Shown here in pieces: positions 11,237 through 14,701 of a stretch of DNA of 23,321 nucleotides; the stretch's first letter is position 1; the number at the start of each line of letters is the position of its first letter. The stretch lies in IMG/VR virus record IMGVR_UViG_3300017719_000214, positions 1-23,321 of that record. One strand, 5' to 3'. Source of the DNA: a virus. The notes under the pieces were generated by a model that had not been told where the DNA came from, ran no database searches, and was given only the letters and a program-made list of their open reading frames with translations. The position numbers and the translations under genes are program-made.

Positions 11237-11312
11237 GCGCTTATGGTGAAACTGGATATCATCCGAGTCTTCTAAACTTGTGTTCAAGGTTCGAGTCCTT
11301 GTAGGCGCGCCA
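11237..11312 (+). tRNA. tRNA-Arg (anticodon UCU)
   Basis: A 76-nt cloverleaf. The acceptor stem is GCGCTTA with TAGGCGC (one G-T pair), discriminator G, and the CCA end is encoded (11310-11312). The anticodon arm is CGAGT/ACTTG with loop CTTCTAA, anticodon TCT at 11271-11273. The T arm is CAAGG-TTCGAGT-CCTTG; the D arm is weak but forms GTGA/TCAT with a G-T pair. It reads AGA, which appears to be the main arginine codon in the phage genes here. It lies between two small genes, downstream of the 10950 promoter. Confidence 0.95.
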
Positions 11313-11970: not shown

Positions 11971-12010
11971 TAAAAAAAGTGTTGACAAATGGTTCTATTG
12001 GTAGTATAAT
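11971..12010 (+). promoter_or_regulatory. Consensus sigma70 promoter with A-tract
   Basis: TTGACA (11982-11987), 17-bp spacer, TATAAT (12005-12010). Seven A precede it, and the 18 bases 11971-11988 equal those at 10939-10956. Predicted start ~12017; AAGGAG precedes the 12041 ATG. Confidence 0.9.
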
Positions 12011-12040: not shown

Positions 12041-12385
12041 ATGAAAAACACATTTTTTGAACAGAATATCACTGAGGTTAATAACTATCTGACTAAGATC
12101 AAAGCTGACTATCACAGGTGGCAAGATAGATGCAAAGACGGTTGTGCTAAGATTAAAGACCAAATGTTTGATGAATTTTGTGAAGGTTTAACTTATAGTG
12201 CTGGTAGGAACTACCTAAAAATTACTACTGGTCATTCAACCCATTCATTCATCGTTATTAAACCTACTAAAGGTTTTAAAGAAGGCGACATCTTGATGGC
12301 CAAATCATGGGCTGCCCCGGCAACTAACTTTGCCAGAGGTAACATCTTTGAAGACTATACAGTAAGATGGACAGGTGCGGTATGA
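12041..12385 (+). CDS. Hypothetical protein
   Basis: 114 aa with its own strong promoter and a strong AAGGAG site 6 nt before the ATG, so it should be highly expressed early. The N-terminal half is helical and charged with two Cys close together (D-R-C-K-D-G-C-A-K) and a third Cys in F-D-E-F-C-E-G-L; the second half is beta-rich (F-I-V-I-K-P; G-D-I-L-M-A-K-S-W-A). I do not recognise a family. Strong early expression and small size are features of host-takeover proteins, but that is only inference. It overlaps the next gene by 4 nt. Confidence 0.7.
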   Translation: MKNTFFEQNITEVNNYLTKIKADYHRWQDRCKDGCAKIKDQMFDEFCEGLTYSAGRNYLKITTGHSTHSFIVIKPTKGFKEGDILMAKSWAAPATNFARGNIFEDYTVRWTGAV

Positions 12386-12543
12386 AAGAATTAATCAAAG
12401 AAATCGTAGAGGTAACAATGGCAGAAGATTATGTAAGGTCTTTAGTTGGAGCCCCTACAATAGAAGAAGAAGAAGTCTGCATTTGTGGAGAAAATTTAGA
12501 ATCCTGTCCAGAGTCCTACGTCCACATGACGTCAGGAGTCTAG
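12382..12543 (+). CDS. Small Cys-containing hypothetical protein
   Basis: 53 aa starting at an ATGA overlap with the previous stop. It is very acidic (a four-Glu run at residues ~28-31) and has C-I-C-G-E-N-L-E-S-C, a C-x-C-x6-C cluster that might bind zinc. It ends at TAG 12541-12543, just before the structured non-coding stretch. The overlapping frame 12375-12572 is a shadow of this gene. Confidence 0.55.
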   Translation: MKELIKEIVEVTMAEDYVRSLVGAPTIEEEEVCICGENLESCPESYVHMTSGV

Positions 12544-12702
12544 AGGCAGTCGTCACCTATCGGACGAAATAAAGCGAGAGGGGGTAGTGTCCGAACACTC
12601 ACACGGAAATGAAAAAGTCTGTGATATAGGGGGACGAGTCCGGGGTCAGGGTGGCAACCTGTAACCCCCCAAACAGCCGAATAATGAACGGCCCCGGACT
12701 CA
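12544..12702 (+). ncRNA. Candidate structured RNA (GC-rich multi-stem region)
   Basis: This gap is visibly richer in G and C than all neighbouring DNA. It holds a perfect 10-bp stem GAGTCCGGGG (12636-12645) with CCCCGGACTC (12692-12701), enclosing two small hairpins (CAGG/CCTG, 12647-12661; CCG/CGG, 12677-12691). Upstream, TCGGAC (12560-12565) can pair with GTCCGA (12589-12594), in competition with the hairpin AGTGT/ACACT around loop CCGA (12586-12599). GGGGG at 12629-12633 could pair with the C run at 12665-12670 and form a pseudoknot across the 10-bp stem. No T-run follows, so it is not a simple terminator. It may be a leader or cis-regulator for the 12723 gene, a separate small RNA, or a replication structure. 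Strand is assumed. Confidence 0.6.
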
Positions 12703-12722
12703 ACTATTTTATGGAGATTGTT

Positions 12723-13031
12723 ATGAATAGTTATCTTGGTTCACTTCGATATGACCCTACTGGTCGTAAACGTAAAGCCCCTGGTCTAACCCGTAAACGT
12801 AAACTAAAACCAGAATTTCAACCAATGAAAGTCGAAAAGACTTATGCTGAGCAACAGATGGAAGAATTCCGTAATAAGTACCCATCTTATTCTGGTACTA
12901 CCACATACGAAGCACCTAAGGATCAATCTTGGAAACAAGAAGAATCTAAAAACTTCACAGTTGCACCTGCATATAATAAAGGTGCGTATCAAGTAATCCC
13001 ACGTAAGGATGTAAAACACATAGGTAAATAA
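12723..13031 (+). CDS. Conserved hypothetical basic protein
   Basis: 102 aa from ATG 12723, which has GGAG 6 nt upstream; the frame is open further back but runs into the structured RNA. The N-terminus S-L-R-Y-D-P-T-G-R-K-R-K-A-P-G-L-T-R-K-R-K is strongly basic and conserved-looking in marine T4-like phages. The rest is polar, with many Gln, Lys, Tyr and Pro, and probably disordered. Nucleic-acid binding is plausible from charge alone. Confidence 0.68.
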   Translation: MNSYLGSLRYDPTGRKRKAPGLTRKRKLKPEFQPMKVEKTYAEQQMEEFRNKYPSYSGTTTYEAPKDQSWKQEESKNFTVAPAYNKGAYQVIPRKDVKHIGK

Positions 13032-13375: not shown

Positions 13376-13383
13376 TATAAATA
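13376..13383 (+). promoter_or_regulatory. T4-type late promoter
   Basis: An exact TATAAATA octamer in the 59-bp gap before the late gene block. The predicted start ~13389 gives a 29-nt leader with AAAGGG before the ATG at 13418. In T4 this motif is read by RNA polymerase carrying gp55. Confidence 0.8.
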
Positions 13384-13417: not shown

Positions 13418-14701
13418 ATGGATTTACTACCAATAAAGTTTGAAACGGGCACAAACCCTGACAAATATCTAAACGAAATTCGTGCTGCTAAAAGATTAGG
13501 TAATCTTTTTGTAAGAAAGATTAAAGCAGTGTGGACTACAATTAAAAAGGCAATTGTAAAGTTATTCAGAACCAAAGTTAGAAAAGCAGAACTATTTGAT
13601 ACGGTTGAAATTACTATACCTAAACAGGTAAAGGAAGATATAATGAATGAAATGCCGATATTAAAAGAAGAATCTGGCGCTATTGGAGCAATCAAGGGTA
13701 ACTATAACGAAGCGCTTGTTTGCCAATTTCTCTTTGATCATAGAGGGGAAGAGGTTAACATATCCAAAAATTATGAGAAATATAGAGCGGGTATTAAACA
13801 GACCGTAACTGATTGGGATAAGAAATTAAAAGTTGCTGACCAGAAAAACTATACGAAGAACATAAAAATTATCCGTAAAGGTAGTGCTGATATGGCTAAC
13901 TATCTTATCTCTGCTGCAGTAAGTGAACAAGCCACAATAGTAGGCGCTTACTTGGACAATCTTGCATTCATGGACGGAATTGACTTTAAAGCAGATATTA
14001 GAGTCGCTGTAATGAAAGAAGGCAAAGAAATCCTTGATGGTTACTCTCTCAAACTATATTCAAATAAGACAGTAGGTCTCGCAAATACAACTGCAAGAGG
14101 TTTATGTGGTCATTTAGCTGGTGATAGTGCAGAAAACGAATTCGATGGAAAAGCTAAAACTGACCAAACTCTAAAGGATTTGATTCATAAATCAAAACTA
14201 TTAAATGCTATAAAACAAGACCATAAGAAATGGTTAAAAGGTGATGAAAAATCCTATGATAAACTAATTAGGTTACGAGGATTAACACCTGCTGAAATAG
14301 AAAAATTAAGCCAATCTCAATTAAAGGCCGACAGAGCTGCGGCCAGAAAGCCAATCAATACAAGAATTGCTGCATTAGTATATGATGTATTAAAGAATTA
14401 TGAAGGTAGTGATACTCTAGGCGAAAGAGTACTTGATATTTTAGGTTTTAACGATAAAGAAACTAAAATGTTAATGGCAATTACTACTGAAAAGAAAAGT
14501 GAAATTATAGCACATCACCCTGACTTGGATTTAAGTAAAATTAAAATAGAAGACCCTAACGGTAGAGTATCAATTAATATTATTGGACCTACAGGTAAAA
14601 GAATAGTATCATTTAATGTAAAAGAAGGTGAACAGAAAAAAGTAAGTGGTTCTGTTTCTTTTGCAGGAATTGAACCAGAGGAGTATGAAGAATACCTATG
14701 A
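13418..14701 (+). CDS. Late conserved hypothetical protein
   Basis: 427 aa, first gene of the late block, with AAAGGGATTAAG before its ATG. The N-terminal ~60 residues are basic and helical. A central segment (F-K-A-D-I-R-V-A-V-M-K-E-G-K-E-I-L-D-G-Y-S-L-K-L-Y) has an Asp, then a strand ending S-L-K, loosely like a PD-(D/E)xK nuclease core, followed by a G-L-A-N-T-T-A-R-G-L block; this is suggestive only. It ends with a possible beta domain. It lies beside the putative ligase-like gene and overlaps it by 4 nt (ATGA). Late expression suggests a virion, packaging or DNA-processing role. No capsid-targeting-like start is seen. Confidence 0.72.
   Translation: MDLLPIKFETGTNPDKYLNEIRAAKRLGNLFVRKIKAVWTTIKKAIVKLFRTKVRKAELFDTVEITIPKQVKEDIMNEMPILKEESGAIGAIKGNYNEALVCQFLFDHRGEEVNISKNYEKYRAGIKQTVTDWDKKLKVADQKNYTKNIKIIRKGSADMANYLISAAVSEQATIVGAYLDNLAFMDGIDFKADIRVAVMKEGKEILDGYSLKLYSNKTVGLANTTARGLCGHLAGDSAENEFDGKAKTDQTLKDLIHKSKLLNAIKQDHKKWLKGDEKSYDKLIRLRGLTPAEIEKLSQSQLKADRAAARKPINTRIAALVYDVLKNYEGSDTLGERVLDILGFNDKETKMLMAITTEKKSEIIAHHPDLDLSKIKIEDPNGRVSINIIGPTGKRIVSFNVKEGEQKKVSGSVSFAGIEPEEYEEYL

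Follow-up and report, generated by a model that had tools for sequence, protein, structure and literature searches.

The question raised by this locus is what occupies a GC-rich gap between two short open reading frames in the AT-rich genome of a virus. The sequence analysed was a 23.3-kb IMG/VR virus fragment (record IMGVR_UViG_3300017719_000214; 23,321 nucleotides, hereafter "the window"). The gap (12544–12722) lies between an ORF of 53 aa without assignable family (up, 12382–12543; stop codon 12541–12543, immediately followed by the GC-rich stretch) and an ORF of 102 aa (dn, 12723–13031), both on the + strand, as are the RNA and all its helices. In a first-pass annotation made from the letters of the window, positions 12544–12702 had been described as a candidate structured RNA with a perfect 10-bp stem, inner hairpins, a G-C pairing crossing that stem and two competing upstream folds; a switch or a stand-alone RNA upstream of a gene had been suggested. 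The gene content of the window includes UvsX, a DnaB-like helicase and thymidylate synthase, and the closest match to its UvsX was phage C48C1 (Kyanoviridae, 74.5%); on these grounds the virus is placed with the T4-like phages, in the marine cyano/pelagiphage group; the marine setting is taken from its relatives and not from sample records.

The difference in composition was confirmed: GC content was 55% in the RNA, against roughly 31–40% for most of the window when read in 500-base steps. The inverted repeat 12636–12645/12692–12701 was present as described and was the sole inverted repeat reported in the gap. Folding energy was no better than that of dinucleotide-matched shuffles (z −0.50; z −1.15 for 12628–12710), so that stability alone, or composition together with the stem, would not single out the RNA; the element is taken as real because it was found in 20 further contigs and its structure beats a tree-aware null. 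Rfam 15 at gathering score gave a tRNA at 11237 as the only match in the window, and the permissive search (E ≤ 10) gave chance-level matches (best non-significant E 0.68, a human lncRNA region); the first-pass annotation had likewise named no riboswitch or ribozyme that fits. Neither ARAGORN nor the Rfam models matched the RNA as tRNA or tmRNA. Likenesses to hammerhead, RNase P and twister, judged by eye, were dropped for lack of a model match. A coding region was rejected: no frame stays open across the homologues, and their stop-free stretches differ. No published description of the RNA was found in the open-access literature.

Related viral loci (37) were collected via the protein encoded two genes upstream, and more via DNA patterns and the dn protein; the RNA was recognised in them by blastn, nhmmer and a covariance model. 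It is carried by 20 IMG/VR contigs besides the window (76–100% identity), which belong to a group of T4-like phages, uncultivated and probably marine. Three scans of viral contigs, with patterns taken from different parts of the RNA, returned essentially the same set of contigs; therefore the unit of ~200 nt travels whole. The boundary drawn by the covariance model was sharp: carriers scored ~166–192 bits, non-carriers nothing above chance. One locus (L041) was rejected as a carrier, an 18-base pattern having matched by chance where the RNA is absent. Of the outcomes named beforehand as telling against a structured RNA, two can be checked on sequence, lack of conservation and a known Rfam match; neither was observed.

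The RNA is accessory and its site is fixed, since non-carrier phages with the same upstream gene (74–83% identity) have other genes directly after the stop codon of up, and three long relatives of 121–137 kb lack it throughout. A further 14 records, among them Pelagibacter phage HTVC008M and phage C48C1, gave no match to the covariance model, cultured phages gave short chance matches at the DNA level, and plasmids gave none. One DNA pattern had five matches in prokaryote genomes, none with a covariance-model match, and these were treated as chance.

A structure model with eight units was drawn from a curated alignment of 17 sequences. Together with the covariance-model matches it places the whole conserved RNA at 12499–12701 (~203 nt): the element is longer than the first-pass annotation had it, the gap being about the 3' four-fifths of an RNA that starts near 12499 inside the end of up, and both ends are approximate. 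The 5' hairpin P0 (12510–12541) pairs 12510–12517 with 12534–12541 and, at its top, 12518–12522 with 12528–12532; pair 12514–12537 changes between U-A and G-C, and 12519–12531 from C-G to U-A in L048. It is followed by an H-type pseudoknot, PKa (12550–12581), in which stem S1 (12550–12554/12563–12567; UCGUC with GACGA) is invariant in all 17 sequences and stem S2 (12556–12562/12575–12581) reads CCUAYCG/CGRKAGG, pair 12560–12577 being U-A, C-G or U-G; one nucleotide separates the 5' strands of the two stems, and an A-rich loop spans 12568–12574. A simple hairpin of UCGUC with GACGA was dropped, because the covariation sits in the nested stem CCUAYCG/CGRKAGG. Two hairpins lie between the 5' and 3' domains and show exchanges in three pairs: Pb (12586–12599; AGUG/CACU, 12586–12589 with 12596–12599) has A-U in 13 and G-C in 4 of the 17 sequences at 12586–12599, and Pc (12602–12623; 12602–12607 with 12618–12623) has C-G/U-A at 12602–12623 and G-C/A-U at 12605–12620.

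The 3' domain is built on the main stem P2 (12636–12647 with 12690–12701), that is, the 10-bp repeat extended to 12 bp by two covarying pairs (12646–12691, U-G/U-A/G-C; 12647–12690, C-G/G-C). It is crossed by P1 (12629–12633 with 12665–12669), the G5/C5 pairing that had been named in the first-pass annotation before any comparison; P1 is unbroken in 17/17, with G-C in 8, A-U in 8 and G-U in 1 sequence at 12630–12668, and G-C in 14 and A-U in 3 at 12632–12666. Inside P2 lies P3 (12648–12660), an AGG/CCU stem invariant in 17/17 with the loop KUGGYWA, and a second, P1.1-like crossing pairing joins GGY of this loop (12653–12655) to RCC at 12676–12678 (C-G in two sequences, the window and L040, and U-A in the remaining 15). 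The domain is thus supported as a nested double pseudoknot, P2 being crossed by P1 and the second crossing coming from the P3 loop. An inner hairpin GCCG/CGGC proposed for this region is not conserved in the alignment; its stretch has other conserved partners, 12676–12678 with loop 12653–12655 and 12690–12691 with 12646–12647.

Pair counts on a first alignment were compared with shuffles: 98.2% of cells were paired, double-change cells numbered 28 against 7.8 in shuffles, and pairing fell to 45–48% when partners were slid by one column. Since this control ignores kinship, a tree-aware null was adopted, in which the changes of each column were put on random tree branches 5000 times. Over all helices of the 17 sequences 25 unpaired cells were found against 86.9 expected (P < 0.0002). 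Taken alone, P1 had 0 unpaired cells against 12.3 expected (P = 0.0004), P2 had 0 against 14.1 (P < 0.0002) and Pb had 1 against 15.1 (P < 0.0002); Pc gave P = 0.013; PKa S2 (P = 0.19), P0 (P = 0.07) and the second crossing pairing (P = 0.16) did not reach significance by themselves. The helix-wise test does not apply to PKa S1 and P3, which are invariant. When all 3787 column pairs were ranked by G-statistic, a P2 pair came first (E = 0.1) and 8 of the top 16 were model pairs. These probabilities are optimistic, because most of the model was built while looking at the alignment; the exceptions are P1, ten pairs of P2 (the first ten) and those hairpins that the first-pass annotation had already named.

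The two competing upstream folds, TCGGAC/GTCCGA and AGTGT/ACACT, both exist in the window, and from them a switch had been suggested. Among the relatives only AGUG/CACU (hairpin Pb) is conserved, with a double change from A-U to G-C and nearly all cells paired. UCGGAC/GUCCGA is broken in many of them, being unpaired at 12560–12594 in 7/17 and at 12564–12590 in 6/17, and uncompensated; one fold is therefore supported, not two, and mutually exclusive conserved folds were not found for this pair of helices.

The 5' end of the RNA overlaps up, the last ~45 nt of which double as the 5' hairpin. In several carriers up is lost or truncated and its 3' end kept. In L047 and L044 both upstream ORFs are replaced, and the last ~45 nt of up are still joined to the RNA; in L053–L057 and L098 all that is left of up is ~25 nt, folding into a stem of 7 bp with UUCG (L054 and L098) or a triloop as its cap. 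The bit of up retained where the ORF is missing is exactly the part that forms P0, and in carriers with an intact ORF the same 3' stretch forms the longer hairpin. L048 has the up frame cut to about 26 codons and two synonymous changes in up that compensate each other (ACGUC/GACGU to AUGUC/GACAU). Over the last 15 codons of up, synonymous differences drop from 0.38 to 0.20 in carriers and from 0.34 to 0.28 in non-carriers. The up protein itself has a conserved Cys-X-Cys-Gly...Cys pattern, possibly metal-binding, and a C-terminal HMTxGV, in carriers and most non-carriers. In L053 (1601–2295), and at matching places in L054, L055, L056 and L098, an IscU/NifU-type and an IscA-type Fe-S assembly gene stand together, a few hundred bases before the RNA; phage C48C1 likewise has a NifU-like gene.

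The downstream neighbour, which is not part of the RNA, has a basic N-terminus and a weak match to phrog_4593 (function unknown in phrog); no SSB match was found for it. In 18 of the 20 aligned loci its start codon follows the RNA at a distance of ~20 nt. A consistent association of the two was not found: dn is absent from L047 and L044, where the RNA structure is unchanged, and dn occurs without the RNA in L058–L065 (69–73% identity in L058–L063). The position upstream of a gene holds for the window, but the RNA persists without dn and dn without the RNA. A co-dependence of the RNA with the basic dn protein had been considered and was dropped after these loci. In the place of dn, L047 and L044 have an ORF that encodes a ferredoxin domain of the 4Fe-4S type (Pfam Fer4) and is continuous with the dn2 homologue. 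Both neighbouring genes are dispensable to the RNA. That it is kept while flanking genes are lost or swapped suggests a real RNA gene.

A perfect sigma-70 consensus promoter by motif match (TTGACA-17-TATAAT, 11982–12010, + strand) stands at the start of the operon containing the RNA. Every RNA-bearing locus has a 12/12 promoter match 418–712 nt upstream of the RNA except L047 and L044, where the match is 11/12 and the distance 184 nt. In these two the interval from promoter to RNA holds a 15-codon ORF (METSPALEKELGIPG) within a 16-bp hairpin, very stable at −34 kcal/mol over 80 nt, and the RNA follows directly. The RNA always has the orientation of the coding sequences and directly precedes another gene, being intercistronic in every carrier, and in the window neither a separate promoter nor a clear terminator was found next to it. 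Three perfect TTGACA-17-TATAAT promoters occur in the window (3581, 10950 and 11982), together with five T4-type late motifs TATAAATA (9648, 13376, 15744, 20474 and 21820), all of them further off from the RNA, the nearest on its downstream side being that at 13376; these may serve as a sketch of an early/late map. When the window (13418–14701) was compared with L040, L004 and L005, the gene behind the late promoter was seen to be swapped for an unrelated 487-aa ORF in some relatives only, the flanking genes staying; this is a second variable site.

The reading judged somewhat better than even is that of a stand-alone non-coding RNA of ~200 nt in an early operon, with a compact, stable fold, acting in trans and likely binding protein. 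Transcription of the short operon that includes the RNA would begin early, at the strong sigma-70-type phage promoter, and the RNA would fold into the 5' hairpin, the H-type pseudoknot, two hairpins and the nested double-pseudoknot 3' domain; such a compact particle, released or otherwise stable, would resist decay and might act in trans in host takeover or counter-defence, a protein of host or phage being its most likely binding partner. Counted against it are the position always before a gene, the own promoter and terminator not found in the window, and the accessory distribution. Its main rival, possible and yet rather unlikely, is a cis-acting leader or riboswitch-like element controlling translation or stability of the downstream gene(s) via a protein or small molecule. 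The shared strand and the usual ~20-nt spacing to dn point that way; the basic N-terminus of dn could bind RNA; and the gene 32 leader of phages T4, T2 and RB69 has a pseudoknot that is bound by gp32 in autoregulation (PMC3014915). With that leader the present RNA shares an H-type pseudoknot, a T4-type transcript and a place upstream of a gene, whereas its pseudoknot is one part of a multi-domain RNA of ~200 nt that is independent of the following gene, and the location is another, the gene that follows being the 102-aa ORF without SSB match. The leader reading is further opposed by L047 and L044, in which a ferredoxin-type ORF follows an unchanged RNA, by dn persisting without the RNA in L058–L063, by the alternative switch pairing not being conserved, and by P0 sitting within the preceding ORF. 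Because RNA and dn occur apart, the stand-alone option of the first-pass annotation is preferred to that of a dedicated leader.

A compact pseudoknot could plausibly block nucleases, and the intercistronic position in every carrier would suit an element for stability or processing, a knotted exonuclease block or processing mark with neither ligand nor trans role; this is considered improbable, as the near-invariant loops and linkers of the 5' domain exceed the need of a mere block and the RNA is missing from relatives that share the upstream genes. Least probable by far, and very doubtful, is a self-cleaving ribozyme of HDV-like fold processing the operon RNA just 5' of 12629. The strand order of the 3' domain (P1, P2, P3, P1', loop-to-junction pairing, P2') and its nested double-pseudoknot wiring are those of the HDV-like ribozymes, with covariation in P1 and P2 and a C-G/U-A exchange in GGY/RCC (P = 0.16 alone), and HDV-like ribozymes of the theta type also occur in phages; in ribozymes of this fold a junction cytosine is described as essential (PMC10879173). 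No invariant C was found in 12679–12689, the junction before P2', across the 17 sequences. P1 has 5 bp and P2 12 bp, a linker of 4 nt follows P3, P4 is lacking, and the crossing pairing is GGY/RCC; unlike the theta ribozymes the RNA is not tRNA-linked, no tRNA adjoins it, and no Rfam HDV model matched up to E 10. The 3' domain may at most use an HDV-like fold as scaffold and is not filed as a member of that family.

The RNA is rated as a new family relative to Rfam 15, of a kind, accessory structured phage RNAs, that has precedents. Phage T4 has two stable RNAs, C and D, small and of unknown function, which lie in its tRNA cluster; like the present RNA they are small RNAs of a T4-type phage, and they differ from it in location. 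ToxI is a pseudoknotted RNA. A phage mimic of ToxI is reported to have a counter-defence role (PMC3475682); the present RNA has no tandem repeats, and no toxin gene was recognised beside it. The wcaG, manA, glnA and PhotoRC-II RNAs of cyanophages (listed in PMC9964418) are likewise structured RNAs of T4-like marine phages found by comparison, whereas the present one matches no Rfam family and has different genes nearby.

Structured RNAs this elaborate have seldom been described in dsDNA phages. The RNA is directly amenable to experiment: its ends are approximately placed, it is strongly conserved, it has two domains with pseudoknots, and there is evidence that selection acts on it independently of the neighbouring genes. 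It is conceivable, if on balance unlikely, that it represents an RNA machine of a class new to phages: of its two pseudoknotted domains, joined in one molecule of ~200 nt, one would be wired like the HDV fold and carry another chemistry or a binding site, and the RNA would work in trans against host machinery or immunity at an early stage of infection. A domain wired in this way that lacks the catalytic residue bears on the reusability of the HDV fold.
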